Shown here: piece by piece, positions 30,804 to 46,815 of the stretch | How the letters are laid out: each line of letters begins with the position of its first letter | How positions within the stretch are numbered: position 1 is the first letter of the stretch | NCBI GenBank assembly: GCA_017792465.1 | Contig: CP051234.1 | Span: forward strand, 4,372,501 to 4,436,500 | DNA length: 64,000 nucleotides | DNA from: Filomicrobium sp. | GTDB lineage: Bacteria > Pseudomonadota > Alphaproteobacteria > Rhizobiales > Hyphomicrobiaceae | Direction of reading: 5' to 3' | Position numbers and translations under genes: made by a program | The notes under the pieces: generated by a model | Told to the model about the DNA's origin: nothing | What the model saw: the letters and a program-made list of their open reading frames with translations, nothing else | The model's database searches: none

Positions 30804-31691
30804 ATGTGCGGCATTGTCGGCCTCTTTTTGAAAAAGGACGAACTGCGCCCGCGATTGGGTGAGCTCTTGACCGACATGCTCGTGACCATGACCGATCGCG
30901 GACCGGATTCCGCTGGCATCGCGATCTATGGTGACAGCGCGGACGGCATCAAGTTTACGGTGCAATCGGATACTCCGAAGGAAGATTTTGCGGGCCTGGA
31001 AGAGGCGCTTCGTGCTGCGATCGATGCACCGGTTAGCCTAAAGGTTCTTGATACGCACGCCGTAATTACGGTTGCGCAAGCGACTGCGGCGACCGCCGAG
31101 GCGTTCCTTGAAGGGCGTGGGCTGCGCATCATGGGCAAGGGTGAGTCCATGGAGATCTTCAAGGAGGTTGGCTTGCCCCAGGAGGTGGCCGATCGTTTCG
31201 GTCTGCGTGCGATGTCGGGCAGTCACGGCATCGGCCATACGCGGATGGCGACCGAGTCCGCCGTGACGACGCTTGGCGCGCATCCCTTTTCGACCGCCGA
31301 AGATGAATGCATCGTGCACAACGGCTCGCTGTCGAACCACAACGACATGCGCCGCCGTCTGACCAAAAAAGGTTTCGTCGCCAAGACCGAGAACGATACC
31401 GAGGTTGCCGCCTGTTACGTCTCCTCGCGGATCGCAGAAGGCGCCAATCTTCGCGAGGCTCTCGAAGGTGCGCTCGAAGACCTCGACGGATTCTACACCT
31501 TCGTTACCGGGACCAAGGATGGCTTTGGCGTCGTGCGCGATCCGATCGCGTGCAAGCCGGCTGTGATGGCGGAAACCGACGACTATGTCGCCTTTGCTTC
31601 CGAATACCGCGCTTTCGCGGACCTGCCGGGTATCGAGAACGCCCGCGTCTGGGAACCCGAACCTGCAACCGTCTACTTCTGGGAGCGCTAA
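30804..31691 (+). CDS. mgsA: N-methylglutamate synthase subunit A, class II glutamine amidotransferase domain
   Basis: A 295-residue protein homologous to the amidotransferase part of glutamate synthase (GlxB-like). The catalytic Cys2 is exposed after Met1 (MCGIVGLF); RGPDSAGIAIYG, GHTRMATES, HNGSLSNHNDMRRRL and END-TEVAACY are the expected glutamine-binding segments. With MgsB and MgsC it forms N-methylglutamate synthase, which makes N-methylglutamate in indirect methylamine oxidation. A strong GGGAGGG ribosome site precedes the ATG. It is the first gene of an eight-gene operon, mgsABC-gmaS-mgdABCD. In isolation it could be called a glutamate synthase-like protein; the neighbours decide the name. 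Confidence 0.85.
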   Translation: MCGIVGLFLKKDELRPRLGELLTDMLVTMTDRGPDSAGIAIYGDSADGIKFTVQSDTPKEDFAGLEEALRAAIDAPVSLKVLDTHAVITVAQATAATAEAFLEGRGLRIMGKGESMEIFKEVGLPQEVADRFGLRAMSGSHGIGHTRMATESAVTTLGAHPFSTAEDECIVHNGSLSNHNDMRRRLTKKGFVAKTENDTEVAACYVSSRIAEGANLREALEGALEDLDGFYTFVTGTKDGFGVVRDPIACKPAVMAETDDYVAFASEYRAFADLPGIENARVWEPEPATVYFWER

Positions 31692-31693
31692 GC

Positions 31694-32443
31694 ATGACTT
31701 CAGCTTTGAAAAAGGCCGACGCCGTGGATCGCGTCAGCGCGTCCAAGGAGCTTGGCAGCCTGCGCTCGCTCGATATGGCGGAAGTCGAACTGCGCGACGT
31801 GAACGCGACGCTGCAGGCAGCGGGCAAGGGTGAGAACGACAATCGTTGGGAAGTTCTCAACCCGCGCGGCAGTCACGCTGTGGCGGTCGGGCTTGATGTG
31901 CCGATCGAGGTCACCGTCAAAGGTTCGACGGGCTATTACTGCGCCGGCATGAACAAGAAAGCGACGGTTCATGTCGAAGGTTCGGTTGGTCCGGGCGTTG
32001 CCGAGAACATGATGTCGGGAACGGTGATCGTCGAAGGCGATGCGAGCCAATATGCAGGTGCCACCGGGCACGGCGGGCTCCTTGTGATTAAGGGCAATGC
32101 CTCGTCACGCTGCGGGATTTCGATGAAGGGCATCGATATCGTCGTGCATGGCAATATCGGGCACATGTCGGCGTTCATGGCGCAAAAGGGTAACCTTGTC
32201 GTTCTTGGCGATGCCGGGGGCGCGCTCGGAGATTCGATCTACGAGGCGCGGCTTTTCGTGCGCGGGTCGGTGGCGTCACTGGGGGCCGACTGCATCGAAA
32301 AAGAAATGCGCCCTGAGCATCTGGAAATTCTCAAAGACCTGCTGGAGCGCGCGGGGGCGGATGCCTCTCCGAGCGAATTCAAACGCTATGGCTCGGCGCG
32401 CAAACTCTACAATTTCAACATCGACCACGCTGGCGAATACTGA
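31694..32443 (+). CDS. mgsB: N-methylglutamate synthase subunit B, GXGXG domain
   Basis: A 249-residue protein that corresponds to the C-terminal GXGXG beta-helix domain of glutamate synthase (GlxC-like). The repeated turns are visible: VHVEGSVGPGVAENMMSGTVIVEGDAS, GGLLVIKGNASSRCGISMKG, IVVHGNIGHMSAFM and NLVVLGDAGGALGDS. In full-length glutamate synthase this domain is structural and helps hold the ammonia channel. It starts two bases after mgsA ends, which implies coupled translation. The N-terminal ~60 residues (RSLDMAEVELRDVNATLQ) are the usual lead-in of free-standing GXGXG subunits. Confidence 0.85.
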   Translation: MTSALKKADAVDRVSASKELGSLRSLDMAEVELRDVNATLQAAGKGENDNRWEVLNPRGSHAVAVGLDVPIEVTVKGSTGYYCAGMNKKATVHVEGSVGPGVAENMMSGTVIVEGDASQYAGATGHGGLLVIKGNASSRCGISMKGIDIVVHGNIGHMSAFMAQKGNLVVLGDAGGALGDSIYEARLFVRGSVASLGADCIEKEMRPEHLEILKDLLERAGADASPSEFKRYGSARKLYNFNIDHAGEY

Positions 32444-32454
32444 GGTTGACCAAA

Positions 32455-33780
32455 ATGGACCACACTCCTGCAACGATGCCGCGCCAGTCCTGGACGTTCT
32501 CCAACGAGATCAATTCGGAAATCCGCCGTGCGGCGATGACGGGCATCTACGATATCCGCGGTGGCGGCGCCAAGCGGCGGGTGCCGCACTTCGATGACCT
32601 CCTCTTCATGGGCGCGTCGATGAGCCGGTATCCGCTCGAGGGGTATCGTGAGAAATGCGAGACGAGCGTCACGCTCGGCACGCGGTTTGCCAAAAAGCCG
32701 ATCGAACTTGCAATCCCCATCACCATTGCTGGCATGAGCTTCGGCTCGCTGTCGGGGCCGGCCAAGGAAGCGCTTGGGCGTGGTGCGTCGCTCGCAGGGA
32801 CGTCAACGACGACGGGTGACGGCGGCATGACCGAAGAAGAGCGCGGTCACTCGAAGCTGCTCGTTTATCAATATCTGCCGAGCCGCTATGGCATGAACCC
32901 TGACGACCTGCGCCGCGCGGATGCGATCGAAGTCGTTGTCGGCCAGGGTGCGAAGCCGGGCGGCGGTGGGATGCTGCTCGGTCAAAAGATCACTGAACGC
33001 GTCGCCCAGATGCGCGATCTTCCCGAAGGGATCGACCAACGTTCGGCATGCCGACATCCGGACTGGACCGGGCCCGACGATCTTGAAATCAAGATTCTTG
33101 AGCTGCGCGAGATCACCGGCTGGGAGAAACCCATCTATATCAAGGTCGGTGGGTCACGGCCTTATTATGACACGGCGCTTTCGGTGAAGGCCGGAGCCGA
33201 CGTGATTGTGCTTGACGGGATGCAGGGCGGAACGGCGGCGACGCAGGATGTTTTCATCGAGCATGTCGGTACGCCGACGCTTGCTTGTATCCGCCCGGCC
33301 GTGAAGGCGCTTCAAGATCTCGGGATGCATCGCAAGGTGCAACTGATCGTATCCGGTGGCATTCGCACGGGGGCGGACGTTGCAAAAGCGCTGGCTCTTG
33401 GCGCGGATGCCGTCTCCATCGGTACGGCGGCCCTCGTTGCGATCGGCGATAACGATCCCAAATGGGAAAAAGAATATCAGAAGCTCGGTTCGACGGCTGG
33501 GGCTTACGACGACTGGCATGAAGGTCGTGACCCAGCTGGCATAACGACCCAGGATCCAGATCTGATGGCGCGTCTCGATCCGGTCGAGGCCGGCCGCCGG
33601 TTGCGCAATTACCTCAACGTTTTGACGCTGGAATGCCAAACGCTGGCGCGCGCGTGCGGGAAGAGCCATGTGCGCAACCTTGAGCCAGAGGACCTGTGTG
33701 CGTTGACGATTGAGGCCGCAGCGATGGCACAGGTTCCGCTTGCCGGCACCAATTGGATCCCCGGGCAAAACGGCCTCTAA
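32455..33780 (+). CDS. mgsC: N-methylglutamate synthase subunit C, FMN-binding glutamate synthase domain
   Basis: A 441-residue TIM-barrel protein homologous to the FMN domain of ferredoxin-dependent glutamate synthase (GlxD-like). Segments include ITIAGMSFGSLSGPAKEALGRGA, STTTGDGGMTEEER, GQGAKPGGGGMLLG, YIKVGGSRPYYDTALSVKAGADVIVLDGMQGGTAA and LIVSGGIRTGADVAKALALGAD, which bind FMN and the 2-oxo-acid. The last ~60 residues contain four Cys (CQTLARACGKSHVRNLEPEDLCALT), a possible Fe-S site. ATG 32455 is preceded by GAGG at 9 bases. It is the catalytic subunit of N-methylglutamate synthase by analogy with Methyloversatilis and Methylobacterium clusters. Confidence 0.86.
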   Translation: MDHTPATMPRQSWTFSNEINSEIRRAAMTGIYDIRGGGAKRRVPHFDDLLFMGASMSRYPLEGYREKCETSVTLGTRFAKKPIELAIPITIAGMSFGSLSGPAKEALGRGASLAGTSTTTGDGGMTEEERGHSKLLVYQYLPSRYGMNPDDLRRADAIEVVVGQGAKPGGGGMLLGQKITERVAQMRDLPEGIDQRSACRHPDWTGPDDLEIKILELREITGWEKPIYIKVGGSRPYYDTALSVKAGADVIVLDGMQGGTAATQDVFIEHVGTPTLACIRPAVKALQDLGMHRKVQLIVSGGIRTGADVAKALALGADAVSIGTAALVAIGDNDPKWEKEYQKLGSTAGAYDDWHEGRDPAGITTQDPDLMARLDPVEAGRRLRNYLNVLTLECQTLARACGKSHVRNLEPEDLCALTIEAAAMAQVPLAGTNWIPGQNGL

Positions 33781-33857
33781 CAGCACTCCACGACATTCGC
33801 GGCGTTACGCCCAGGCAGACTTCAAAAACGGATAGAGCAGCACAGGATTTTTTTGCC

Positions 33858-35162
33858 ATGACTGATCTGGCCACCTTCGCCAAGGAAAAGGGCGTCAAGT
33901 ATTTCATGATCTCGTTTACGGATCTGCTGGGTGCGCAGCGCGCCAAGCTGGTGCCAGCGGCGGCGATTGCGGAGATGCAGGTTGAAGGAGCAGGCTTTGC
34001 GGGTTTCGCGACCTGGCTTGATATGACGCCGGCCTATCCGGATATGCTGGCTGTGCCCGATCCAAGTACGGTGATCCAGCTGCCATGGAAGCGGGACGTC
34101 GCGTGGGTTGCGGCCAACTTGGTGATGGAAGGCAAGGAAGTCGACCAAGCGCCTCGCAACGTTTTGCGGCGTCTCATCAAGGAAGCCGAACAAAACAGCA
34201 TCCGGGTGAAGACGGGCGTGGAAGCCGAGTTCTTCCTGCTATCGCCTGACGGTGACAAAATCTCGGATGCCTCCGATACGGCGGAAAAGCCCTGCTACGA
34301 TCAGCAAGCGGTGATGCGCCGCTATGATGTGATCGCCGAGATCTGCGACTACATGCTGGAGCTTGGCTGGGGCCCGTACCAGAACGATCACGAGGATGCC
34401 AACGGCCAGTTCGAGATGAACTGGGATTTCAGCACGGCGCTTGTCACGGCCGACCGGCACTCGTTCTTCAAGTTTATGGTCAAGTCGGTCGCTGAAAAGC
34501 ATGGGCTGAAGGCGACCTTTATGCCCAAGCCGATTCCAGGACTGACAGGTAATGGCTGCCATGTCCACGTTTCGGCATGGGACCTCGGTGGGACGGTCAA
34601 CTTGTTTGCGGACGGTCTTGATGACATGGGTCTTTCCCCGCAAGCGCGTGGGTTCCTTGGCGGTGTCATGAAGCACGCCACCGCGATGGCGTTCATCACC
34701 AACCCGACCGTCAACAGCTATAAGCGCATTAACGCGCCGGTGACGAGTTCCGGGGCGACATGGGCGCCCAATACCGTCACGTGGTCGGGCAATAACCGTA
34801 CGCATATGGTGCGCGTGCCGGGACCGGGGCGGTTCGAACTGCGCCTCGCCGATGGGGCGGCCAATCCTTATCTGTTGCAGGCCGTGGTTATCGCGGCCGG
34901 GCTGTCAGGGATGAAGACGAATGCCGATCCGGGACCGCGCCTTGACATCGACATGTATGCCGAAGGTCACACGGTGAAGGATGCGCCGAAGCTGCCGCTC
35001 AACCTGCTCGATGCGATGCGCGCGTTCGATGGCGATGAAGAGTTGAAGTCGATGATGGGTTCGGAATTCTCTGCCGCCTACATGAAGATGAAACAGTACG
35101 AGTGGGATTCGTTTGTTTCACATTTCTCGAATTGGGAACGCGAGCACACCATCGACGTCTGA
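33858..35162 (+). CDS. gmaS: Gamma-glutamylmethylamide synthetase (GlnT-type)
   Basis: A 434-residue glutamine-synthetase-family ligase that condenses glutamate and methylamine with ATP to gamma-glutamylmethylamide, the entry step of the indirect methylamine route. Active-site motifs are VKTGVEAEFFLL (metal-binding Glu), QNDHEDANGQFEMN, LTGNGCHVHVSAWD, NPTVNSYKRINAP and GRFELRLADGAANPYLLQ. The N-terminus (MTDLATFAKEKGVKYFMISFTDLLGAQRAK) is that of the GlnT/GmaS branch and not of type I GlnA. It lies between the mgs and mgd genes, which strongly supports the assignment. AGGA is 12 bases before the ATG. Two further ligases of this superfamily occur at 40464 and 41792. Confidence 0.9.
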   Translation: MTDLATFAKEKGVKYFMISFTDLLGAQRAKLVPAAAIAEMQVEGAGFAGFATWLDMTPAYPDMLAVPDPSTVIQLPWKRDVAWVAANLVMEGKEVDQAPRNVLRRLIKEAEQNSIRVKTGVEAEFFLLSPDGDKISDASDTAEKPCYDQQAVMRRYDVIAEICDYMLELGWGPYQNDHEDANGQFEMNWDFSTALVTADRHSFFKFMVKSVAEKHGLKATFMPKPIPGLTGNGCHVHVSAWDLGGTVNLFADGLDDMGLSPQARGFLGGVMKHATAMAFITNPTVNSYKRINAPVTSSGATWAPNTVTWSGNNRTHMVRVPGPGRFELRLADGAANPYLLQAVVIAAGLSGMKTNADPGPRLDIDMYAEGHTVKDAPKLPLNLLDAMRAFDGDEELKSMMGSEFSAAYMKMKQYEWDSFVSHFSNWEREHTIDV

Positions 35163-35274
35163 GCAGCCGGGCCATCGGCATGGAGCGGAGAGGCCATTGG
35201 TCTCTTTGGATTGCTGACGGCTTTCCTCAAGACAATCTATTCGTCGCGCGCCTGTCGGGCGGAGTTGGCCTCAC

Positions 35275-36525
35275 ATGAAATATTCAGGTTTCCGTGTTGT
35301 CGCCGAAGCCCTGTTTGGGCACAAGGGCTGGAAGCCGCTATGGCGCGATCCGGACCCTAAACCGGCTTATGATTTCGTGATCGTCGGTGGCGGTGGGCAC
35401 GGATTGGCAACCGCCTACTATCTGGCGAAAACCTTTGCCGAAAAGCGCATCGCCGTTCTAGAGAAGCGATGGCTGGGGTCGGGCAATATCGGCCGCAACA
35501 CGACGATCATCCGCTCCAACTATCTGCTGCCGGGCAATGAGCCGTTTTATGAGTTCTCGATGAAGTTGTGGGAGGGCCTTGAGCAGGACCTCAACTTCAA
35601 TGCGATGGTTTCTCAGCGCGGCATTCTCAATCTCATTCATTCCGATGCGCAACGCGATGCCTACCGCCGGCGCGGCAATGCCATGCTGCTTGCGGGGGCC
35701 GATGCACAGTTGCTCGACCGAGAAGCGGTGCGGCGCATGTATCCGTATTTGAATTTCGATAACGCGCGCTTCCCCATTAAAGGCGGCCTTCTGCAGGCGC
35801 GTGCTGGAACTGCGCGCCATGACGGCGTTGCGTGGGGTTACGCGCGCGGTGCCGATCTCAGGGGCGTCGACATCATCCAGAACTGTGAAGTCACGGGCTT
35901 TCAGATCGAGGGTGGTAAGGTCGTCGGTGTTGAGACATCGCGCGGGCCGATCAAAGCCAAGAAGTGCGGCGTGTGCGTTGCCGGATCGTCGAGCCGCGTG
36001 ATGGAAAAGGCCGGCATGCGACTGCCGATCGAAAGCCATGTCATCCAGGCGTTTGTGTCCGAAGGGTTGAAGCCGACGATCAATGGCGTCATCACCTTCG
36101 GTGCCGGGCACTTCTACATCAGCCAATCCGACAAGGGCGGCCTCGTCTTTGGCGGCGATCTCGACGGCTACAACACGTACGCGCAACGCGGCAACCTGCC
36201 TGTCGTCGAAGACGTCGCGCGTTGCGGTATGGCGCTGATGCCGGCGATTGGGCGCGCGCGGCTGTTGCGCAACTGGGGTGGCATCATGGACATGTCCATG
36301 GATGGCTCGCCGATCATCGATCGCACGCCTATCGAAGGGCTCTACTTCAATGGCGGCTGGTGCTACGGCGGCTTCAAGGCTACGCCGGCCAGCGGCTATG
36401 CGTTTGCCCATCTCCTCTCAACCGATGCTCCGCACCCAACGGCTGCCGCCTATCGTCTCGACCGCTTCGCACGCGGCTACCTGATCGATGAAAAAGGTGC
36501 TGGCGCGCAACCTAATTTGCACTGA
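35275..36525 (+). CDS. mgdA: N-methylglutamate dehydrogenase subunit A (sarcosine oxidase beta-like)
   Basis: A 416-residue FAD-dependent amine oxidase related to the beta subunit of heterotetrameric sarcosine oxidase (SoxB). The dinucleotide-binding motif VIVGGGGHGLATAYYLAK is at about residues 37-54, followed by LEKRWLGSGNIGRNTTIIRSNYL, where the FMN/FAD-linked region lies in SoxB. The C-terminus has GIMDMSMDGSPIIDRTP and NGGWCYGGFKATPASGYAFAHL. With MgdBCD it oxidises N-methylglutamate, returning glutamate and passing the methyl carbon to tetrahydrofolate. Context (gmaS before, SoxD/A/G-like genes after) favours this over true sarcosine oxidase. Confidence 0.86.
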   Translation: MKYSGFRVVAEALFGHKGWKPLWRDPDPKPAYDFVIVGGGGHGLATAYYLAKTFAEKRIAVLEKRWLGSGNIGRNTTIIRSNYLLPGNEPFYEFSMKLWEGLEQDLNFNAMVSQRGILNLIHSDAQRDAYRRRGNAMLLAGADAQLLDREAVRRMYPYLNFDNARFPIKGGLLQARAGTARHDGVAWGYARGADLRGVDIIQNCEVTGFQIEGGKVVGVETSRGPIKAKKCGVCVAGSSSRVMEKAGMRLPIESHVIQAFVSEGLKPTINGVITFGAGHFYISQSDKGGLVFGGDLDGYNTYAQRGNLPVVEDVARCGMALMPAIGRARLLRNWGGIMDMSMDGSPIIDRTPIEGLYFNGGWCYGGFKATPASGYAFAHLLSTDAPHPTAAAYRLDRFARGYLIDEKGAGAQPNLH

Positions 36526-36533
36526 GGCGATTG

Positions 36534-36827
36534 ATGCTCATTCCCCACCCGTTGCTTGGTCCGCGCGATGCAGAGGAGTTCACCTATATGGGGGATGCCA
36601 GCCTCATTGCGCGTCCGTCTGCAAGTGATCCAGGCGCCGAGCAAGCGTTCTCGGACTACGTCTATCTTCGCGACAATCCGGCCGGCGTTCATCGCGAGCT
36701 TTGGTTTCACGAGGCGGGCGATCGCTCGTGGATTGTCGTGACGCGCAATACGCTCACGCATGAGATTTTGGATGCGCAGCTAGCTCGCGATGTTGCGCTG
36801 GCGTCGGCTGCGGAGGCTGGCGAATGA
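36534..36827 (+). CDS. mgdB: N-methylglutamate dehydrogenase subunit B (sarcosine oxidase delta-like, zinc site altered)
   Basis: A 97-residue subunit homologous to SoxD. In heterotetrameric sarcosine oxidases SoxD starts with a CPxCGPRxxxEF zinc motif and has a second H-x3-C pair. Here the start reads MLIPHPLLGPRDAEEF, so the two Cys are His and Leu, and WFHEAGDRSW has Asp in place of the last Cys; only the second His remains. The fold-defining residues (GPRD, EF, YLRDNPAG, ELWFH, W, TRNTLTHEI) are kept. The zinc site seems lost. ATG 36534 is used because a TTG three bases earlier is less likely. Its stop overlaps the mgdC start (ATGA). Confidence 0.83.
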   Translation: MLIPHPLLGPRDAEEFTYMGDASLIARPSASDPGAEQAFSDYVYLRDNPAGVHRELWFHEAGDRSWIVVTRNTLTHEILDAQLARDVALASAAEAGE

Positions 36828-39760
36828 GCAGGCTTCCTGGCGGGCTGATCGATCGCGGCCGGACGCACTCTTTCACGTTCGATGGAAAAGCGTATCACGG
36901 GCATCCAGGCGATACGCTCGCCTCGGCGCTGCTTGCGAACGACGTGCGTCTGATGGGCCGCAGCTTCAAGTATCATCGACCGCGCGGTGTCTTCACCTCC
37001 GGTTCCGAAGAACCCAACGCCCTTGTCGAGCTTGGCACCGGTGCGCGGCGCGAACCCAATACGCGTGCGACGGTGGCGGAGATCTACGATGGTCTCGTCG
37101 CAAACAGCCAGAACCGTTTTCCGTCGCTGTCCTTCGATCTGATGGGCGTCAACGATCTCTTTGCGCCGTTCTTTGCGGCGGGCTTCTACTACAAGACCTT
37201 CATGTGGCCGGCGTCGTTCTGGGAGAAGGTCTACGAGCCTATCATCCGGCGGGCGGCGGGTCTTGGAAGCTTGTCGATGGATGCCGATCCGGATGCCTAC
37301 GACAAAGGCTTCCTGCATTGCGACATCCTGGTGATCGGCGCTGGTCCGGCCGGACTTGCGGCGGCGCTGACGGCAGCGCGTGCGGGGGCGCAGGTTATCC
37401 TGGCGGACGAAGATTTTCGCCTTGGCGGCCGGTTGCTTTCAGAAACGCATAGGCTTGATGATGCGCCTGCGCAGAACTGGATCGAGAGCCTTGAAGCAGA
37501 ATTCGACGGCTTGCCGAAACTGCGGGTGATGCGCCGCACGACCGTCTTCGGAGCCTATGACCATGGCGTCTATGGGGCGGTTGAGCGTGTCGCAGACCAC
37601 TTACCTGACGCGGGGACTGGTGTCCGGCAGACGCTATGGCGCATCACGGCAAAGCGTACGGTTTTGGCGGCCGGAGCGCACGAGCGGCATATCCCGTTTG
37701 CCAACAATGATCGGCCGGGCATCATGTTGGCAGGGGCAATGCGGGCTTATGCCAATCGCTGGGCGGTGAGTGCTGCGGACAAGATCGCCGTTTTCACCAA
37801 CAATGATGATGGGCATCGGACGGCCATCGACCTCGCCGCGAAAGGCGTCGAAGTCGCGGCCGTCGTCGACACTCGGTCATGGGCGAAATCGCGTGGCGAT
37901 TATCCGTTCTATCCGGGCGCGACGGTCAGCAATGCGCGCGGGCGCACGGGTCTTGTGAGCATCGATATCAATTACGCCGGCGGGACTGAGCGACTGGAGT
38001 GCGGTGCGCTGGGCGTATCGGGGGGCTGGAATGCGAACGTGCATCTTGCCTCTCACCATCGTGCGCGGCCCGTTTGGCGCGAAGATATTTTGTCCTTCGT
38101 TCCCTCTGGCCATGGCGGGCCGCCAGGTCTTAGCGCTGCGGGGGCCGCGACAGGCCGTGCGACGACACATGCTGCTCTGAATGACGGCGCCCGCGTTGCG
38201 GCTGTTGCGTTGTCCGATCTCGGGATCGATGCGCTCCTGCCGGATCTGCCGAAGGCCGAAGACGAGCCGGCGACATCGCAGCCTTATTGGCATGTGCCCG
38301 GCAAGGGGCGCGCCTGGGTCGATTTCCAGAACGATGTGACGGTCAAGGACATCGAGCTTGCGCACAAGGAAAACATGCGCCCGGTCGAGCACCTCAAGCG
38401 GTGGACGACGTTGGGGATGGCGACCGATCAGGGCAAGACGGCGAACGTCACAGCGCTCGCAATCATGGCATCATTGACGGGCAAGCCGATCGCCAAAACC
38501 GGTACGACGATTTTCCGGCCGCCTTACACCGGGGTTTCGATCAGCGTTCTTGGTGGCGGCGATAGCGGACAGAATTTCCGGCCGCGCCGTTTGACGCCGA
38601 CGCATGTTTGGGCCGCAGAGAACGGTGCAGAATTCGTTGAGGCCGGGCAATGGCTGCGGGCGCAATACTATCGGCAGCCGGGGGAAACAGACGCGCGCAC
38701 GAGCGTCGATCGCGAGGCGGCGGCTGTGCGTTCGGGGGTTGGCATTTGCGATGTGACGACGCTCGGTAAGATCGACGTGCAAGGCGCGGATGCGGGTGCG
38801 TTCCTCGACCGCCTTTATTGCAACGCCATGGCGTCTCTGCCGGTCGGCAAGGTCCGATACGGACTGATGCTGCGCGAGGACGGTTTTGCCTACGACGACG
38901 GGACATGCGCGCGGCTCGGCGAAGATCATTACGTTGTGACGACGACGACAGCCAACGCCGGTCTTGTCTATCGCAACATGGAATTTTCGCGCCAATGCCT
39001 TTGGCCCAACCTCGACTTGCAGCTGATCTCGACGACGGATGCCTGGGCGCAGATTGCGGTTGCCGGGCCGGAGTCGCGGACATTGTTGTCGCGGGTCGTC
39101 GATGGCGTCGATCTCTCGAACCAGGCGTTTGGCTTCATGGCCTGCCGTGAGCTGACGGTGTGCGGCGGGCTGCGGGCGCGGCTCTTCCGGGTTTCGTTTT
39201 CTGGTGAGCTCGCTTATGAGATTGCCGTGCCGTCGCGCTATGGCAACGCCTTGATGACGCAGTTGATGGAAGTTGGTGCCGATCTTGGCGTGACGCCTTA
39301 TGGGACCGAAGCGCTTGGCGTTTTGCGCATCGAGAAGGGGCATGCGGCGGGGCCCGAAATCAACGGGCAGACGACCGCGCAGATGCTTGGGCTCGGCGGC
39401 ATGGTGTCGAGGAAGAAAGACGCGATCGGTTCGGTAATGTCCCGGCGCGAGGGGCTAGTTGGCGACAAGCGCAAGCTCGTTGGTTTTGTGCCGGTCGATC
39501 GGCAAAAGAGAATTGTCGCCGGTTCTCATTTGTTTTCGCTGGGCGCACGGCATGCAACCGAAACAGATGAAGGGTGGATCACCTCGGCCTGCCATTCGCC
39601 GGCGCTTGATAGTTTCATTGCGCTGGGCTTTTTGGAAAATGGGTCGCAGCGCTTGGGCGAGGTGATCGTTGCCGCCAATCCGCTGGAAGGCTCGCAAGTT
39701 TCCGTGCGTGTTGCGAGTCCGCACTTCGTTGACCCAGAAGGAGCCCGCCAGCGTGCCTGA
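36824..39760 (+). CDS. mgdC: N-methylglutamate dehydrogenase subunit C (sarcosine oxidase alpha-like)
   Basis: A 978-residue protein with the SoxA layout. An N-terminal ferredoxin-like part (FTFDGKAYHGHPGDTLASALLANDVRLMGRSFKYHRPRG) is followed by an NAD/FAD-binding domain from about residue 165 (CDILVIGAGPAGLAAALTAARAGA, FRLGGRLL, AGAHERHIPFANNDRPGIMLAGA), then a C-terminal aminomethyltransferase-like tetrahydrofolate domain from about 600 (VGICDVTTLGKIDVQGADAGAFLDRLY, RVSFSGELAYEIAVPS, GTEALGVLRIEKGHA). That last domain captures the methyl carbon as methylene-tetrahydrofolate. Length and order equal the SoxA family. It overlaps both neighbours. Confidence 0.88.
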   Translation: MSRLPGGLIDRGRTHSFTFDGKAYHGHPGDTLASALLANDVRLMGRSFKYHRPRGVFTSGSEEPNALVELGTGARREPNTRATVAEIYDGLVANSQNRFPSLSFDLMGVNDLFAPFFAAGFYYKTFMWPASFWEKVYEPIIRRAAGLGSLSMDADPDAYDKGFLHCDILVIGAGPAGLAAALTAARAGAQVILADEDFRLGGRLLSETHRLDDAPAQNWIESLEAEFDGLPKLRVMRRTTVFGAYDHGVYGAVERVADHLPDAGTGVRQTLWRITAKRTVLAAGAHERHIPFANNDRPGIMLAGAMRAYANRWAVSAADKIAVFTNNDDGHRTAIDLAAKGVEVAAVVDTRSWAKSRGDYPFYPGATVSNARGRTGLVSIDINYAGGTERLECGALGVSGGWNANVHLASHHRARPVWREDILSFVPSGHGGPPGLSAAGAATGRATTHAALNDGARVAAVALSDLGIDALLPDLPKAEDEPATSQPYWHVPGKGRAWVDFQNDVTVKDIELAHKENMRPVEHLKRWTTLGMATDQGKTANVTALAIMASLTGKPIAKTGTTIFRPPYTGVSISVLGGGDSGQNFRPRRLTPTHVWAAENGAEFVEAGQWLRAQYYRQPGETDARTSVDREAAAVRSGVGICDVTTLGKIDVQGADAGAFLDRLYCNAMASLPVGKVRYGLMLREDGFAYDDGTCARLGEDHYVVTTTTANAGLVYRNMEFSRQCLWPNLDLQLISTTDAWAQIAVAGPESRTLLSRVVDGVDLSNQAFGFMACRELTVCGGLRARLFRVSFSGELAYEIAVPSRYGNALMTQLMEVGADLGVTPYGTEALGVLRIEKGHAAGPEINGQTTAQMLGLGGMVSRKKDAIGSVMSRREGLVGDKRKLVGFVPVDRQKRIVAGSHLFSLGARHATETDEGWITSACHSPALDSFIALGFLENGSQRLGEVIVAANPLEGSQVSVRVASPHFVDPEGARQRA

Positions 39761-40337
39761 TATTAGCCTCAAGTCGATGACAGCTTTGGGAAGCGACGAT
39801 GCGCTCAGCGAAACGTTCGGCGCTATCACGATTTCGGAGAGGCCGGAGGTTGCAATCGCTTCCCTCGCCGCGCGGAGTGATGCGCCAGATCCAATTTCGG
39901 TGTTTGGCCTGTCTTTGCCTGGACCGGGTGAAATGGTGAGCGGGGATGGCATCACTATCGTCTGGTCAGCACCTCGTCAGTGGATGATCTTGGGCGAAGG
40001 GCGCGGTGAGCAGGACTTTGCATCTGATGTGAAGGCTGCCGCTCAGGATTGTTCGATCACCGAGCAGACCGATGGCTTCGTTTGTATCGATCTCGTTTCG
40101 AACAGCGGGGCCCAGCCGTTGCAGGATCTCTTGATGAGGCTGGTCAACCTCGATCCGGCGCGTCTGGCGCCAGGATGTGCGACGCGGACTCTCCTGGAGC
40201 ATATGAGCGTGTTTTTGATCCGCTATTCCGAAAGGCGTGTCGCCATCCTTTCGATGCGCTCGTCGGCGCAATCGCTTTGGCATGCGCTGTCGACGGCTGC
40301 TGGTTTTGCGGCTCATAGGGCGGAAGTGCGGGCCTAA
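39753..40337 (+). CDS. mgdD: N-methylglutamate dehydrogenase subunit D (sarcosine oxidase gamma-like)
   Basis: A 194-residue protein related to SoxG. The central part is weakly conserved in the family; visible features are WSAPRQWMILGEG, VCIDLVSNSGAQPLQDLLMRLVNLDPARLAPG and CATRTLLEHMSVFLIRYSERRVAILSMRSSAQSLWHAL, the last two being the usual SoxG C-terminal blocks. The GTG at 39753 is chosen because AAGGAG stands 9 bases before it and it overlaps the mgdC stop by 8 bases. It closes the mgs-gmaS-mgd operon; an intergenic region with candidate operator 2 follows. Confidence 0.82.
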   Translation: MPDISLKSMTALGSDDALSETFGAITISERPEVAIASLAARSDAPDPISVFGLSLPGPGEMVSGDGITIVWSAPRQWMILGEGRGEQDFASDVKAAAQDCSITEQTDGFVCIDLVSNSGAQPLQDLLMRLVNLDPARLAPGCATRTLLEHMSVFLIRYSERRVAILSMRSSAQSLWHALSTAAGFAAHRAEVRA

Positions 40338-40463: not shown

Positions 40464-41792
40464 ATGCAGGATGAAGAGACATTGGGTAGGGATCTCGAAG
40501 AGGGGTCCGAGACGGTCCATGTCGGCATTTTCGACTTCACCGGGGCCTTCCGCGAGAAGCGGCTGTCGTCGGCAGCGTTTGAAAAGGCGCTTGAGGGTGG
40601 CTGGCATTTCATCGACGCGCTGCCCTTTTGGATGCATGACGAGAGTTGCTTTGCTGAAAAGGGCTTCAAGGACGAAGCCGTTGCAATCGACCGTGAGAGC
40701 ATACGCCCTTATCCGTTCGAACCGTCAAGCCGACTTGGTGTAGCCGACTATGCGGGGCCGAGTTCCGCGATCTCGCCGCGGGCGTTGTTGAAACGCGTTG
40801 TTGGCAAGGCGAAAGAGGCGGGTTTCGAAGCTGTCGCCGGGTTTGAATTCGAGACCATCTTTCTCAACGAGGATGGAACTTCACTGCGAGAAAAGTCGTG
40901 GAGCGGACTTGCACCGGCGATGGCGCATAACCGTTGCTGGTCGGGTGTCGCTCCGGCTGCAGATTCTTCCTTCCTGGCAGACATCCACCGGCACTTAGAG
41001 CTTGCCGGCATTTCGCTGGATCACCACTGCATGGAGCTTGGTCCGGGCTGCGTCGAATATTGTCTGGCGCCGAAACCGATTATGCAGGCGGCCGATAATG
41101 CTGCACTCTTCAAGGTTTTCACCAAGTCTTTGGCACGACGCCGCCAGATGACGGCGAGCTTTATGGCGCAGCTTGATGATGGCTTTCCGGGGCTCGGCGG
41201 GCATGTTTCGATGTCGCTTCGAAGCTTCTCGGGTGAGCCGTTTTTTTACGATGGCGATGCGCCGGACGGTTTGAGCACGACTGCTCAGCATTTTCTTGGT
41301 GGTGTCCTCGAACTCATCCCCGAACTGATGGCGATGTTTGCGCCGACGGTAAATTCCTATCGGCGTCTTCGACCGGGCAATTGGGCGCCGCGCGCGCCGA
41401 ACTGGGGTCTTGGCAATTACTCGTGCGGTGTTCGCGTCGTCGCGCACGCGCCGCATGAAACGCGCCTTGAGTTCCGGCTGCCGGGGGCGGATGTCAATGC
41501 CCATGTCGTTGCCGCGATGATGCTGGCGGCCGGTCTCTTCGGCATCGAGAAGAAAGCTGAACCGGGGCCGCCGGTCGATGGCAACGGACGCCTTGCGGAC
41601 CCTATTCCTGGACAAGACCTTCCGACTTCCCTTGAAGAAGCCTCCCGCCGCTTCGCCACTTCGAGCGCGGCGCGAGAGCTCTTCGGCTCGGCCTTCGTCG
41701 ATCACTACGCCGCCTGGTGCCGCGCCGAAGCCGCCGCCTTCCATGCCCACGTCTCCGCTTTCGAGCGGGCCCGCTATCTGGAGAGTTTGTGA
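40464..41792 (+). CDS. Glutamine-synthetase-family ligase, second copy; substrate unknown
   Basis: A 442-residue member of the glutamine synthetase superfamily, clearly divergent from GmaS. The metal-binding Glu pair is in VAGFEFETIFL, and the C-terminal catalytic block is ETRLEFRLPGADVNAH. The glutamate-binding loop reads FPGLGGHVSMSL, where GmaS has TGNGCHVHVS, so the second His is replaced. MFAPTVNSYRRLRPGNWAPRAPNWG fits the ATP/phosphate region. Such proteins join glutamate to an amine. The ATG at 40464 with GGAAG upstream is chosen over a TTG at 40395 that lies inside the operator. It overlaps the next ligase by one base (TGATG), so the two may work as a pair. Confidence 0.8.
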   Translation: MQDEETLGRDLEEGSETVHVGIFDFTGAFREKRLSSAAFEKALEGGWHFIDALPFWMHDESCFAEKGFKDEAVAIDRESIRPYPFEPSSRLGVADYAGPSSAISPRALLKRVVGKAKEAGFEAVAGFEFETIFLNEDGTSLREKSWSGLAPAMAHNRCWSGVAPAADSSFLADIHRHLELAGISLDHHCMELGPGCVEYCLAPKPIMQAADNAALFKVFTKSLARRRQMTASFMAQLDDGFPGLGGHVSMSLRSFSGEPFFYDGDAPDGLSTTAQHFLGGVLELIPELMAMFAPTVNSYRRLRPGNWAPRAPNWGLGNYSCGVRVVAHAPHETRLEFRLPGADVNAHVVAAMMLAAGLFGIEKKAEPGPPVDGNGRLADPIPGQDLPTSLEEASRRFATSSAARELFGSAFVDHYAAWCRAEAAAFHAHVSAFERARYLESL

Positions 41793-43261
41793 TGACCGAT
41801 ATTGAAGCCTTTGTGGATGCCCCCGGCCGCGCAGAAAAGGTTGCGGAAGTGCGCAAGCTCATCGACGAGCTTGGGATCGAATATCTTTATTTGCAGTTCG
41901 TTTCGGTGACGGGGCGTATTTGCGGCAAAGGCATTCCGGCGGATCACTGGGAAAGCGTTGCGAAGAAAGGCTTCCAGCTCGTCTACGGGGCGACGGTGAA
42001 CCTCTTTCTCAATCGCCATGGCGAGTATCTGGGCTATGGCCCGGAAGCAGCCGAACTCGTTGGCATTCCGGAGCCGGAAACGTTCTGCCAATTGCCATGG
42101 GACAAGCGCGTGGCGCGCATCTTCTGCACGCTCTTTCGCAACCGGGAAGAGCGTGAAGCGCCTGGTGCCTTCCTGACCTCCGACTGCCGCGGGAACCTGC
42201 GGCGCATCCATCAGAAGTTCACGGCCGATCATGGCGGGCTGCATCTGCGCGAAGGTGTCGAGCCGGAAATGATGTGGTTGAAGCGCGACGAAGATGGGAA
42301 GCCGGCGGGAGGATTTTCGAAGCCTTATTGCTATCATATTGATCAGTTCGAGAGCCTGCGTCCGGTCTACATGAAGGTGATCGAATATTCGCGTGCGATG
42401 GGTCTCGATATGATCCAGGGCGATCATGAAGACGCGCCCGGTCAGCTTGAATTGAACTTCACCTTCGATGATCCGTTACGGACGGCTGACCGATTGACGA
42501 CCTATCGGCAGATCTGCGCCCAGGTCGCGCGTGAGCACAATCTCATTGCGTGTTTCATGTCGAAGCCGTTCATGAATGTTTCGGCTTCGGGCTGTCATCA
42601 CAACATCAGTTTCTGGCGCGGTGGCACGACGGTGCGCAAGAAGCTGGGGCAAGATAAAATGGCCGCCATGCCGGAGGTGTTCGAATATGCCGACGGCGGC
42701 GAAAACACGTTCATGCCGGAAGGGTCTGATCTGCAGATGCCGGGCGTTGTCGGGCGTCGCGTTGTTGCAGGGATCGTTGACCATCTCTTCGCGTTGACGG
42801 CGATCGGTTGCTCGACGGTGAACTCCTACCGACGGCTGTGGGATACGGGCTTCTGGGCGCCGGTTTTTGCCGATTGGGGCTTCCAGAACCGTACCACGGG
42901 GCTGCGTATTTCCGCGCCCGGGCGCTTCGAATATCGGGCCGTCGATTCCATGGTGAACCCCTACCTCATGGCATCCGGGATCATCGTTGCGGCTGACGAT
43001 GGCATCAAGCGCAACCTGGAGCCGAGCCCGCCGGAAGAGCGCAATATCTATCAAGCGATGGAGCAGGGTAAGGAAGTCAAAAAGCTGCCGATGACTCTTG
43101 GAGCGGCGCTCGAAGCATTGTCGAAAGACGAGGTTATCAAGTCGGCGATGCCCGGCGAAATGTATCGCCTCTATCACGAATACAAGACCGACGAGTGGGA
43201 GCGGTTCAACCATACGGTCTCGGATTTCGACACCGAGACTTATCTCGATTGTCTGCCGTGA
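41792..43261 (+). CDS. Glutamine-synthetase-family ligase, third copy; substrate unknown
   Basis: A 489-residue ligase of the glutamine synthetase superfamily, about 50 residues longer than GmaS. The N-terminal beta-grasp domain has YLYLQFVSVTGRICGKGIPADHWE. Active-site segments are EGVEPEMMWLKRD (a Glu-x-Glu with Pro between), QGDHEDAPGQLELNFTFDD, NVSASGCHHNISFW and GRFEYRAVDSMVNPYLMAS. All core acidic and Arg positions are kept, so activity is expected. It is of the sort found with amine-degradation genes (compare AtdA1 for aniline and IpuC for isopropylamine), which form gamma-glutamylamides. It starts within the stop of the previous ligase and is followed by a P450 after 21 bases. Confidence 0.83.
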   Translation: MTDIEAFVDAPGRAEKVAEVRKLIDELGIEYLYLQFVSVTGRICGKGIPADHWESVAKKGFQLVYGATVNLFLNRHGEYLGYGPEAAELVGIPEPETFCQLPWDKRVARIFCTLFRNREEREAPGAFLTSDCRGNLRRIHQKFTADHGGLHLREGVEPEMMWLKRDEDGKPAGGFSKPYCYHIDQFESLRPVYMKVIEYSRAMGLDMIQGDHEDAPGQLELNFTFDDPLRTADRLTTYRQICAQVAREHNLIACFMSKPFMNVSASGCHHNISFWRGGTTVRKKLGQDKMAAMPEVFEYADGGENTFMPEGSDLQMPGVVGRRVVAGIVDHLFALTAIGCSTVNSYRRLWDTGFWAPVFADWGFQNRTTGLRISAPGRFEYRAVDSMVNPYLMASGIIVAADDGIKRNLEPSPPEERNIYQAMEQGKEVKKLPMTLGAALEALSKDEVIKSAMPGEMYRLYHEYKTDEWERFNHTVSDFDTETYLDCLP

Positions 43262-43282
43262 TCGGGGGCCGTTGGTAACAAG

Positions 43283-44482
43283 ATGAGCGACACAGCGATG
43301 ATGCAGGATGTCCCTTTCATCGATCTGGCTGATCCGAGCGTTTCGGTGCGATCGCAGCCCGTGAAGGATGCGCGCAAAGCCAGTTGGTATGCGAAGACGC
43401 CGTATGGGTTGGCCGTCTTGCGCCATGCGCAGGTTCAAGCCTTGTTGTTGCACGACAAGTTGCGACAGGGCAGCCACGCGTGGCCGGATCATAACGACGT
43501 CAAAGGACTGTTCGCCGACTGGTGGGGGCGGACGATCCTGGTACGCGAAGGGGCGGATCACGCGCGCTTGCGCAAGCTCGTTAATGCCGCGTTTGCCCCT
43601 CGGATCATCCATGCACTGCGGCCGTCTTTCGAGGTGCTTGCCAATGAATTGGCCGACGAGATCGTGTCCAAGGGTGAATGCGATTTCATGTCGGAGTTCT
43701 CCGATCCTTACGCTGCGCGCGTGCTGTGCATGATCCTGGGACTGCCGCGGGAAGAGGCGGCTCACGTTCTTGAAGTGTCAGCGCAGATGGGGTTGGCGCT
43801 CGGCGTCTCGTTCAAGGAGAACGAGGAGATCATCGAAAAGGCGACGCATCAAATGTTCGCCTACGCCGACGGGCTCGTCGAGAACCGCCGCAATATGCCG
43901 GGCGATGATTTCATGTCGACGCTTGTTGCAGCCAGCGATGACAATGACCGGCTGTCGGATGAAGAACTGCGCGACATGATCGTGATGCTGGTGTTTGCCG
44001 GCATCGATACAACTCGAAATCAGCTCGGATTGGGGCTGGCGATGTTTCTTGAACGTCCCGATCAATGGGAAATTCTTGCAGCAAATCCGGAGCTGGCGCC
44101 GAAGGCGGTCGAGGAAGTTTTGCGCGTGCGCCCGACGATCACCTGGGTGACGCGCGAGGCGATTGAAGACTTCGAGTACGAAGGGCTGACGATCACGCGT
44201 GGGACGACCTTGCATCTTCTTTCAGAAGCGGCCGGAACGGATCCGAGCGTCTTTGAACCCGGCTTCGATATTACGGCTGATCGCAAACGTCATTTCGGAT
44301 TTGGCGGCGGGGTGCACCATTGTCTCGGTCACGCTATCGCGCGCAGTGATATGAGCGTGGCCTTCTCGATCCTGCCACCGCGCATCACGAACATCAGGCC
44401 GGCAGGGACGCCGACCTATCTTCCCGATAGCGGCAATACTGGGCCGAAAAGTTTGCCGATCGCGTTCGACATCCGCGGTTAA
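43283..44482 (+). CDS. Cytochrome P450
   Basis: A 399-residue soluble bacterial P450. The I-helix oxygen-activation motif AGIDTTR is at 239-245, the ExxR pair is in EEVLRVRPT, and the heme-ligand loop FGFGGGVHHCLGHAIAR carries Cys347. No membrane anchor is seen and no ferredoxin or reductase gene is adjacent, so electrons must come from elsewhere. Located between two gamma-glutamyl ligases and a class I amidotransferase-like hydrolase, it is well placed to hydroxylate or N-dealkylate a gamma-glutamylated amine, but this is inferred from position only. The ribosome site is weak. Confidence 0.88.
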   Translation: MSDTAMMQDVPFIDLADPSVSVRSQPVKDARKASWYAKTPYGLAVLRHAQVQALLLHDKLRQGSHAWPDHNDVKGLFADWWGRTILVREGADHARLRKLVNAAFAPRIIHALRPSFEVLANELADEIVSKGECDFMSEFSDPYAARVLCMILGLPREEAAHVLEVSAQMGLALGVSFKENEEIIEKATHQMFAYADGLVENRRNMPGDDFMSTLVAASDDNDRLSDEELRDMIVMLVFAGIDTTRNQLGLGLAMFLERPDQWEILAANPELAPKAVEEVLRVRPTITWVTREAIEDFEYEGLTITRGTTLHLLSEAAGTDPSVFEPGFDITADRKRHFGFGGGVHHCLGHAIARSDMSVAFSILPPRITNIRPAGTPTYLPDSGNTGPKSLPIAFDIRG

Positions 44483-44494
44483 GGAGGGCATCAG

Positions 44495-45211
44495 ATGCGG
44501 TTATTGGTGTTTCAGCATGCGCGCAGCGAGCATCCCGGAAGCTTGCGCAAGTTTCTCCAGGAAGACGGCATCTCATGGGACGCGGTCGAACTCGATGAGG
44601 GGGACGCGATCCCCGATCTTGACGGCTACGACATGCTTTGGGTTATGGGCGGGCCGATGGATGTTTGGGATGTCGTCGAGCATCCCTGGCTCATCGACGA
44701 AAAGCGCGCGATCCGCAAATGGGTTCAAGAGTATCGCAGGCCGTTTCTTGGCTTCTGTCTGGGGCACCAACTGTTGGCAGATGCATTGGGCGGCACTTGC
44801 GGTCCGGCGCGGCAGCCTGAAATCGGTATTCTCGACATCACGCTCAATGGCGCTGGCGTCGGCGATCCGATCTTTTCAGGTCTGCCGCGTCAGCAACGAT
44901 GCCTGCAATGGCATTCGGTGGAAGTCGCGCAACCGCCCGAAGGCGCGGTTGTCCTCGCCTCATCTCCGCAATGCGGCGTGCAGGCCATGCGCATCGGCAG
45001 CAATGTCTGGTCGATGCAGTACCACCTCGAAATCGAAGACGACACGGTTGAGGAATGGTGCGCGATCCCGGCCTATGAAGAGGCCCTGCAGAAAAATCTG
45101 GGGCCAGAGGGCATTGGGCGCATGCGCAGCGATGCCGCGCGCTACATGGACGAGCTCAATGCGTCGTCGCGGACGTTCTATTCGAACTTCATGCGCATCG
45201 TTGCGCCTTAG
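44495..45211 (+). CDS. Class I glutamine amidotransferase-like hydrolase
   Basis: A 238-residue free-standing amidotransferase-fold protein (GuaA N-domain type). The catalytic Cys88 is in GFCLGHQLL and the His-x-Glu pair in MQYHLEIEDD (His177, Glu179); WVMGGPMDVWD forms the oxyanion strand. No synthetase domain is attached. In amine pathways such proteins hydrolyse gamma-glutamylamides back to glutamate (AtdA2-like, PuuD analogue), which fits its place after the ligases and P450. AAGGAGGG lies 6 bases before ATG, the strongest site in this operon. It could instead be an unrelated GuaA-like hydrolase. Confidence 0.84.
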   Translation: MRLLVFQHARSEHPGSLRKFLQEDGISWDAVELDEGDAIPDLDGYDMLWVMGGPMDVWDVVEHPWLIDEKRAIRKWVQEYRRPFLGFCLGHQLLADALGGTCGPARQPEIGILDITLNGAGVGDPIFSGLPRQQRCLQWHSVEVAQPPEGAVVLASSPQCGVQAMRIGSNVWSMQYHLEIEDDTVEEWCAIPAYEEALQKNLGPEGIGRMRSDAARYMDELNASSRTFYSNFMRIVAP

Positions 45212-45483: not shown

Positions 45484-46815
45484 ATGGAACAACAACTGGC
45501 TGATCTGGTCGCGAAAGTGGCCGCGCTCGAGAAGTCGAGCGGTATGATGGGAACCATCGATATCGAGATCTATTATTTCTGGGCGACGGCTTTCATGGTG
45601 CTTATCCATGCCGGCTTCCTCGCCTACGAAATGGGGGCATCGCGCGCCAAGAACGTTCTGGCGTCCGGCATCAAGAACATTCTGGCCTTTGCCTTCATCG
45701 TTCCGACTTTCTATTTCTTCGGTTGGTGGATTTATCTGGCGTTTCCGCACGGCTTTGTCCCTTCGTCTGACGGTGATGCCGGTTTGCCTTGGGCGACGGC
45801 CATGGGGCCCAACCTCTCTGACAACGCGACGGGTGTCTTCTGGGCGGCGTTCACGCTGTTTGCGGCGACGACGGCGTCGATCATGTCGGGTGCCGTTATC
45901 GAGCGCATCAAGGTTTATGGATTTGTGATCCTGGCGATCCTGCTTGGCTCGTTTGCCTGGATCCTTGCGTGTGCTTGGGGATGGCATCCGGACGGATGGC
46001 TGTTGAAGAGCTACGGCTATCATGACTTCGGCTGCGCAGGCATCGTCCACGTCATCGCCGGCTTCTTTACGCTCGGCGTGTTGATGAACCTTGGTCCGCG
46101 CATCGGCAAATTCAATGCGGATGGTTCGGCCAACGATCTGCCCGGTCACAACATCCCCATGGTGTTGATTGGCTTGATGCTCATCATCGTCGGTTTCTTC
46201 GGCTTCCTGGCAGCTTGTGCAATTCTCAATGCGGGAGGCCAATGGACCAACATCTATGGTGAGCCGATGACGCTGTCTTCGGTTGCGTTCAATGCTCTGA
46301 TGGGCTTCTCGGGTGGTCTGATCGGCGCCTGGGTGATGACGCGCGATCCGTTCTGGATGATGTCGGGCGGCCTTGCCGGCATCATCGCAGCAGCCGGCGG
46401 CATGGACATCTGGTACCCGCCGCTTGCCTTCATCATCGGGGCCTCCGCCGGTCTCACAATCAGCCTCTTCAACGACATGCTGACGAAGTTTGGACTTGAC
46501 GATGCGGTCGGTGCGGTCGCGGTGCACGGCTGGGGCGGTGTTATCGGTGTCATGTCGGTCGGTGTGCTTGCCTCGGGCTATCCAGGACCTGACGGTTCTC
46601 CGGGCATTTCGCTTGTCGGTCAGTTCGTTGGCCTCGTCGTCTGCATCGCTGTCGGCTTCATTCCAGGCTTCGTCGGCTCGCTGATCCTGAAGATCTTCGG
46701 TTCATTACGGGTGCCCGACGAGGCTCAGATGTTGGGGCTCGACAAGGCCAAGGTTCCGGTTTCGGCATATCCCGAATCCGGCACAGCGCCGGCTGCAACG
46801 GTTCCTGCTGAATGA
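45484..46815 (+). CDS. amt: Divergent Amt-family ammonium (or methylammonium) transporter
   Basis: A 443-residue protein with about eleven membrane helices after a short helical, charged N-terminus (MEQQLADLVAKVAALEKSS). The Amt twin-histidine pore is kept: the first His in FGCAGIVHVIAG and the second in DDAVGAVAVHGWGG; the phenylalanine gate region and SGGLIGAW are present. The usual DFAGGTVVH motif is altered to HDFGCAGIVH, so it is not a typical AmtB. No glnK is adjacent. It lies in the methylamine/gamma-glutamylamide region behind a related operator, so methylammonium or another amine is a reasonable substrate. A 56-residue membrane protein follows. Confidence 0.85.
   Translation: MEQQLADLVAKVAALEKSSGMMGTIDIEIYYFWATAFMVLIHAGFLAYEMGASRAKNVLASGIKNILAFAFIVPTFYFFGWWIYLAFPHGFVPSSDGDAGLPWATAMGPNLSDNATGVFWAAFTLFAATTASIMSGAVIERIKVYGFVILAILLGSFAWILACAWGWHPDGWLLKSYGYHDFGCAGIVHVIAGFFTLGVLMNLGPRIGKFNADGSANDLPGHNIPMVLIGLMLIIVGFFGFLAACAILNAGGQWTNIYGEPMTLSSVAFNALMGFSGGLIGAWVMTRDPFWMMSGGLAGIIAAAGGMDIWYPPLAFIIGASAGLTISLFNDMLTKFGLDDAVGAVAVHGWGGVIGVMSVGVLASGYPGPDGSPGISLVGQFVGLVVCIAVGFIPGFVGSLILKIFGSLRVPDEAQMLGLDKAKVPVSAYPESGTAPAATVPAE

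Follow-up and report, generated by a model that had tools for sequence, protein, structure and literature searches.

What do four tightly packed genes that lie directly behind a complete N-methylglutamate (NMG) operon do in Filomicrobium sp.? The genes occupy positions 40464-45211 of a 64,000-nucleotide stretch of contig CP051234.1 (assembly GCA_017792465.1, positions 4,372,501 to 4,436,500, forward strand), referred to herein as the window. They encode two proteins of the glutamine synthetase family, which we call L1 and L2, a cytochrome P450 and a class I amidotransferase-like hydrolase. Our answer, which we hold to be probable by a modest degree, is that they form an amine-catabolic module working like the isopropylamine (Ipu) pathway, with L2, assisted by L1, as the ligase, the P450 acting on the glutamyl amide and the amidotransferase performing the hydrolysis. 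As the enzyme classes are the same as in Ipu, and the P450 group is different and an extra ligase-fold protein is present, the module would be an Ipu-like variant.

The positions and lengths of the four genes, Cys347 of the P450 and the Cys88/His177/Glu179 triad of the amidotransferase all agreed with the initial annotation of this DNA. L1 and L2 overlap by 1 base, and gaps of 21 and 12 bases separate L2 from the P450 and the P450 from the amidotransferase, respectively. Pfam assigned PF00120 to L1 (272 bits) and L2 (254 bits), PF00067 to the P450 (75.5 bits) and PF00117 to the amidotransferase (71 bits), and the NCBIfam matches of all four proteins were below the curated cut-offs. The preceding operon was also as first described, being a complete mgsABC-gmaS-mgdABCD set on the same strand (30804-40337) with its own GmaS, which scored 634 bits against the TIGR03105 cut-off of 469.6; its soxB- and soxA-type subunits exceeded their cut-offs, and its soxG-type subunit was recognisable, yet under the NCBIfam cut-off. 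Since 126 bases separate mgdD from L1, a transcript shared by the NMG operon and the four genes is only putative, and a promoter and terminator scan returned no more sites than shuffled sequences. The genome is a single contig of 4.47 Mb that encodes a separate GlnA elsewhere.

Using the usual Salmonella glutamine synthetase numbering, carried over by alignment to the host's own GlnA, we found that L1 and L2 both retain Glu129, Glu131, Glu212, Glu220, Glu357, His269, Arg321, Arg344, Arg355 and Arg359. Glu327, which belongs to the ammonia site of glutamine synthetases, is replaced by Trp in both proteins, as it is in GmaS and in the isopropylamine ligase IpuC. This replacement suggests that amines rather than ammonia are the substrates, and L1 and L2 thus look like amine ligases, as first proposed, and not like plain glutamine makers. 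Although the adjacent NMG pathway (GmaS, MgsABC, MgdABCD) uses a ligase of the same superfamily, neither protein is a GmaS by TIGR03105 (179 bits for L1 and 295 bits for L2; 27% and 30% identity to GmaS, respectively), and both also fell below the cut-off of 650 of the PuuA model NF045547, with 161 and 215 bits.

The P450 is repeatedly found in partnership with L2-type ligases. Its close relatives are rare: counting the window, they occur in 2 of 385 genomes of a class sample, 2 of 103 of the family and, at a laxer limit, 3 of 398 of a phylum sample. Identity to the window P450 is 81% in G004 (partial), 70% in L050, 59% in L057, 58% in G223, 57% in G867, 56% in Paracoccus sp. TOH, 54% in Gordonia sp. 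KTR9 and in G864, 53% in Ruegeria SCSIO 43209 and in Streptomyces clavuligerus, and 48% in two near-identical Rhodococcus plasmid loci (L and G numbers are our labels for loci and genomes), and a tree clusters it with the P450s of G004, L050 and L057 (support 99/99). When 13 loci with a P450 of at least 48% identity, the window included, were compared with one profile set, L2 was present in 11 and L1 stood beside L2 in seven. Among the ten loci met by P450 searches at this identity, eight have L2, versus none of 12 plasmid loci whose P450s are at most 46% identical (Fisher p = 1.4e-4); with the two Rhodococcus loci counted once, the comparison becomes eight of nine versus none of 12 (p = 4e-5). 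The ten omit the window, L050 and L057, the latter two having been found through L2 alone, and include L008/G004 and L138/G223, first met through L2 and L1, respectively, since both were also returned by P450 searches. The 12 distant loci, all from plasmid records, are a non-random set: they rank lowest among the 20 matches listed, out of 1277 matching records, and two of the 20, further S. clavuligerus records (H3, H4), were left out. The joint recurrence of L1, L2 and the P450 in other genomes argues for a grouping beyond chance.

The pairing of two ligases with one P450, which the initial annotation did not recognise as a known layout, therefore recurs as an L1-L2-P450 core, but the complete order L1-L2-P450-amidotransferase occurs only in the window among the 13 loci. 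The idea that this exact order is conserved was dropped, as it was seen in no other locus among those examined; in G004, from the same genus, it is not judgeable because the contig stops within the P450, and in L050 the L1-L2-P450 genes are present, but the flank examined contains no amidotransferase. An amtB gene adjoins the core in L050 and lies near L2-P450 in L057, where L2-P450 is placed between mgd and mgs genes and a 68% relative of the window's helix-turn-helix (HTH)-cupin regulator directly follows the P450. Several of the P450 clusters also hold amidotransferase, aldehyde dehydrogenase, ferredoxin/reductase or polyamine-type ATP-binding cassette (ABC) transporter genes. Redox genes take varied forms: a ferredoxin with a reductase in three of the 13 loci, a 2Fe-2S ferredoxin in one (Ruegeria), a fused diflavin reductase in one (TOH) and a frame joining a ligase to an FAD-dependent oxidoreductase in one (KTR9). 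On the TOH plasmid (NZ_CP098363.1; L097, 11974-14886) an open 970-residue frame combines the P450 with the flavodoxin, FAD and NAD domains of a diflavin reductase and is predicted to be a natural self-sufficient P450 of the window's group. The PLSDB table gives just the reductase half of this frame, and nothing on strain TOH was found in the open-licence literature among the matches listed. On plasmid pGKT2 of KTR9 (L098, 11310-13754) the open 814-residue frame, flanked by the P450 immediately upstream and a second P450 gene downstream, fuses an L2-type ligase to the oxidoreductase; we take this frame to be glnA-xplB, the second P450 to be XplA and the first to be CYP151C. In two Streptomyces plasmids (L150, L151), P450s 46% identical to the window's form part of an ectoine-like cluster, where they and genes for a ferredoxin and a reductase are flanked by ectA and ectoine synthase; the cluster also includes an adenylating enzyme and a carrier protein.

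The L1-L2 tandem is a conserved unit. An L1 match at E <= 1e-60 was found in 70 of the 385 genomes of the class sample, own genome included, and L2 adjoins L1 in six of the seven strongest of these L1s (E <= 1e-100, window excluded), versus none of 22 weaker ones (L110-L131), presence of L2 being checked within about 1.5 kb. One of the six tandems (G223) has a P450; the other five (L139-L142 and L144), out of 12 tandems in all, have none of the window's group in the 13-19 kb fetched, and the idea that L1-L2 serve only the P450 was dropped on this ground. In keeping with amine use, the neighbours of these five include genes for a polyamine-type ABC transporter, an aldehyde dehydrogenase or a hydrolase of the gamma-glutamyl-GABA hydrolase type. 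In L141 (7417-8886) the L2 of the tandem carries an internal stop in the assembly. No account of a two-ligase P450 operon was found in the open-licence literature.

Tandem L1s are defined in this analysis by an adjacent L2 and an aromatic residue at the place of Arg339, and the window L1 has both. This residue, which we take to contact the ATP phosphates, is Tyr in 9 and Phe in 3 of the 12 tandem L1s, whereas Arg is kept in all 27 single L1-like proteins without an adjacent L2, in 78 of 78 L2s of the glx type described below, in 13 of 15 other L2s, the remaining two having Lys, and in the three closest solved structures. The tandem L1s form one clade (support 100/99; IpuC falls outside and was used as the root), so the change counts as a single event, after which the aromatic residue was kept. 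At the place of His271, all seven P450-linked tandem L1s have Ser, Thr or Cys and the five others have His (four) or Asn (one); on the tree P450 linkage changes twice and the small residue changes together with it both times, and with two independent changes a sign test cannot reach significance. Every compared L2 has Asn at this place (15/15 and 78/78), so His271 alone is dispensable for the L2 kind. A structure model of L1 (13-row alignment, pLDDT, the predicted local distance difference test, 79) has an ordinary glutamine synthetase fold, with glutamine synthetases as best matches and GmaS structures within the first 20. Given that Arg339 is replaced throughout the tandem clade examined, and His271 by Ser, Thr or Cys in both P450-joined lineages, we tentatively propose a two-subunit gamma-glutamyl ligase: L2 would perform the chemistry as the working ligase, and L1, with its altered ATP site, may be kept in a mixed oligomer to aid assembly, to regulate the enzyme or to hand the conjugate on to the P450. 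The conserved tandem and the altered residue shared by its L1s may thus be taken as added support for the joint ligase suggested in the initial annotation.

L2 has close relatives outside P450 clusters. Of at least 589 confirmed relatives, 80 loci were kept (L017-L096; 72-82% identity to L2), and most hold an operon in the order FAD oxidoreductase, L2, GlxB, GlxC, GlxD and a 137-residue protein; by clustering, the oxidoreductase was recovered in 39 and the 137-residue protein in 71 of the 80. In L039 (14721-15134) the latter, encoded after GlxD, matched no Pfam or NCBIfam model at the limits applied. The operon, exemplified by L061 (8589-15152), has Tmm, Tdm or a separate GmaS/Mgs set in its vicinity in many loci. 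Clustering placed Tdm in 28 and Tmm in 19 of the 80 loci, one representative of each exceeding its NCBIfam cut-off, and NMG genes are often nearby. This glx operon looks like a second N-alkylglutamate-type pathway, and a SAR11 glnT/glxBCD operon is described as a putative methylamine route in an excerpt of PMC3160333. Besides the ligases, a related amidotransferase (42-54% identical to the window's) is shared by 22 of the 80 loci, whereas the FAD oxidoreductase and GlxBCD stand in place of the P450, which occurs in its window-type form in two loci (L050 and L057), and L1 is absent except in L050. In the window's own genome, a family search for GlxD-like proteins returned only two 32% matches besides MgsC. 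The L2 tree, a quick search with long-branch warnings, places the window L2 inside a glx-type group (82 rows; support 94, unstarred), within a starred set of 11 that includes L050; the L057 ligase lies elsewhere within the group, and the L2s of TOH, Ruegeria, G223, L139-L142 and L144 lie outside it. L2 would thus have come together with P450s of this group on more than one occasion, or have been swapped within clusters.

The proposed route has a described counterpart. In the Ipu pathway, according to an excerpt of PMC6776027, IpuC forms gamma-glutamyl-isopropylamide, a P450 system converts it to gamma-glutamyl-alaninol, and an amidotransferase step is postulated to follow. The ligase-P450-hydrolase architecture put forward in the initial annotation is therefore real, but it is less new than claimed, since Ipu clusters already contain a P450, which went unmentioned there. 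The Ipu pathway is also attributed to Pseudomonas KIE171. On plasmid pTC2 of Paenarthrobacter aurescens TC1 the order is ipuC, a short-chain dehydrogenase/reductase gene, an amidotransferase, the P450, a ferredoxin and a reductase, with a second amidotransferase further on. Both clusters unite a glutamylating ligase, a P450 and an amidotransferase, in the window of class I by its PF00117 match and catalytic triad, and share the glutamylate-oxidise-hydrolyse logic. The TC1 cluster differs in having one ligase, with 33% identity to L1 and 26-27% to L2 and not orthologous, and its own ferredoxin and reductase, whereas two ligases occur in the window and the segment scanned there holds no redox partner; the second TC1 amidotransferase is 30% identical to the window's. 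The idea that the operon simply is Ipu was rejected, its P450 and ligases being too distant.

Several observations weigh against our proposal. The window P450 lies outside the Ipu P450 family (29% identity over 287 residues to that of TC1), BLAST found no match between the window amidotransferase and the one adjoining the Ipu P450, which is of the peptidase C26 kind by profile, and to its counterparts in TOH, Ruegeria and TC1 the window enzyme is at most 30% identical over the aligned part. An amidotransferase of the window's type was found in 4 of the 13 P450 loci, and of the other nine one (G004) ends inside the P450; such a gene alone proves little, as one of the 12 distant P450 loci (L180) also has an amidotransferase-type match. 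A profile search of window positions 27001-58000 found no ferredoxin or reductase, and 14 Fer2 matches lie elsewhere in the genome. The Arg339 change, having arisen once on the tree, counts once. The nesting of the window L2 among glx-operon ligases, away from most tandem L2s, suggests that the tandem here is a re-pairing. Finally, the window P450 is nearer to CYP151, whose amine-degrading members, such as MorA and PipA on morpholine and piperidine, act on free secondary amines. This likeness keeps alive an alternative order, unlikely on balance, in which the P450 would first open or dealkylate a free secondary amine and the ligases would glutamylate the resulting primary amine, with methylamine, if formed, passing to the NMG operon. 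The closest solved structure to the P450 by sequence and by fold (rank 1) is AurH, whose identity (150 of 387 residues, 38.8%) falls just under the customary P450 family line of about 40%, the MorA and PipA sequences lying outside the comparison; the P450 model (6-row alignment, pLDDT 78) is weak near the heme loop. AurH itself is a polyketide (aureothin) oxygenase. It is listed as CYP151A in an excerpt of PMC7369989; an excerpt of PMC10516948 mentions, for Mycobacterium, an operon in which a P450 (CYP151/pipA among others) is joined by a ferredoxin and glnA, and excerpts of PMC9477822 report bioI and pipA genes of the molinate degrader ON4T that are 52-53% identical to MorA and PipA and whose locus numbers adjoin two glutamine synthetase genes (437/438, 3051/3052). 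The position of L2-P450 among the mgd and mgs genes of L057 also fits an amine-first order. CYP151-type operons (morA, pipA and KTR9 pGKT2) share with the window a P450 beside an L2-like ligase; pGKT2 differs in its single ligase and in that no amidotransferase was found in L098, and the MorA and PipA operons were compared by description. The presence of the amidotransferase in the window better suits removal of glutamate after oxidation than scavenging.

It is possible, though doubtful, that L1 and L2 are instead ligases that work independently, each on an amine of its own or in one of two successive steps, and form no mixed oligomer. Single L1-like ligases with all listed residues intact exist (27 rows), and in L057, L098, L101 and L173 the DNA fetched contains L2 and the P450 but not L1, so that L1 is not a constant part of the pairing; these four loci also count against our proposal. 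The Arg339 change in 12 of 12 tandem L1s and the contrast in L2 adjacency (6/7 vs 0/22) speak for partnership. A role for the ligases in plain nitrogen assimilation, making glutamine for the NMG operon with the other two genes as bystanders, would agree with PF00120 membership and with the adjoining NMG operon and amtB; with Trp for Glu327 in both ligases, a GlnA of the host's own and a P450 linkage that recurs in distant genomes, we regard it as the least probable explanation. Hardly more credible is the biosynthesis of a small nitrogen compound, to which the P450s, ferredoxin and reductase among the ectA, ectB and ectoine synthase genes of the two Streptomyces plasmids might point: both loci are without a match to L1, L2 or the amidotransferase, and the context in the window is degradation of one-carbon amines.

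We accordingly retain the Ipu-like order, with the conjugate formed first, since the amidotransferase and the ligase-reductase fusion fit it. The ligase unit, with L2 catalytic and L1 a partner that alone is probably no full ligase, would use ATP to couple glutamate to a primary amine other than methylamine. The P450 would then hydroxylate the gamma-glutamyl amide, served by a ferredoxin and reductase encoded outside this locus, and the amidotransferase-like enzyme would cleave the oxidised amide and regain glutamate; released methylamine or formaldehyde, if any, would feed the adjacent NMG route. The NMG and amtB neighbours, also seen at L057 and, for amtB, at L050, favour a small, possibly methylated amine; larger amines are suggested by the polyamine-type transporters in other clusters. 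Single-family searches of the own genome found no trimethylamine-N-oxide demethylase over the cut-off and no secondary-amine monooxygenase of the HODM-type family, which we take to be the dimethylamine monooxygenase.

The features of the locus are collected in the table. The amtB gene begins 272 bases past the amidotransferase gene, and a minus-strand pair at 47119-49760 encodes, as judged by eye from translation, a DNA-ligase-like and an exonuclease/metallo-beta-lactamase-like protein.

Table. Genes of the candidate amine module and its surroundings in the window.
Feature	Position	Strand	Basis
L1, glutamine-synthetase-family protein, 442 residues, tandem-type; Tyr319 and Ser249 in place of Arg339 and His271 of GlnA, respectively	40464..41792	+	Pfam, alignment
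L2, glutamine-synthetase-family ligase, 489 residues; metal ligands, Arg339 and Arg359 kept; nested among glxBCD-operon ligases	41792..43261	+	Pfam, alignment, tree
Cytochrome P450, 399 residues; FGGGVHHCLG, Cys347; closest solved structure AurH (CYP151A)	43283..44482	+	Pfam, structure comparison
Class I amidotransferase-like hydrolase, 238 residues; Cys88/His177/Glu179	44495..45211	+	Pfam, residues
AmtB-type ammonium/methylammonium transporter, possible import partner; start approximate	45484..46815	+	PF00909 over cut-off
GmaS, gamma-glutamylmethylamide synthetase of the NMG operon; start approximate	33858..35162	+	TIGR03105 over cut-off
mgsA, mgsB, mgsC, N-methylglutamate synthase genes; mgsB and mgsC starts approximate	30804..33780	+	By eye and gene order
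mgdA, mgdB (about 36534-36827), mgdC, mgdD, N-methylglutamate dehydrogenase genes	35275..40337	+	NCBIfam; mgdB by eye
HTH-cupin regulator upstream of the NMG operon; start approximate	29985..30647	+	Pfam

If our proposal holds, glutamylate-oxidise-hydrolyse degradation of amines would reach beyond the Ipu P450 to another P450 group, coupled to L2-type ligases, in Proteobacteria and Actinobacteria, and the coupling of P450 and L2 offers a concrete handle for finding more such pathways. The L1-L2 pair would be a testable case of a glutamine-synthetase-fold enzyme with one active and one altered subunit. Glutamine synthetase genes next to amine-degrading P450s have often been taken for ammonia assimilation genes, and our analysis suggests that they may instead encode enzymes of the pathway itself.

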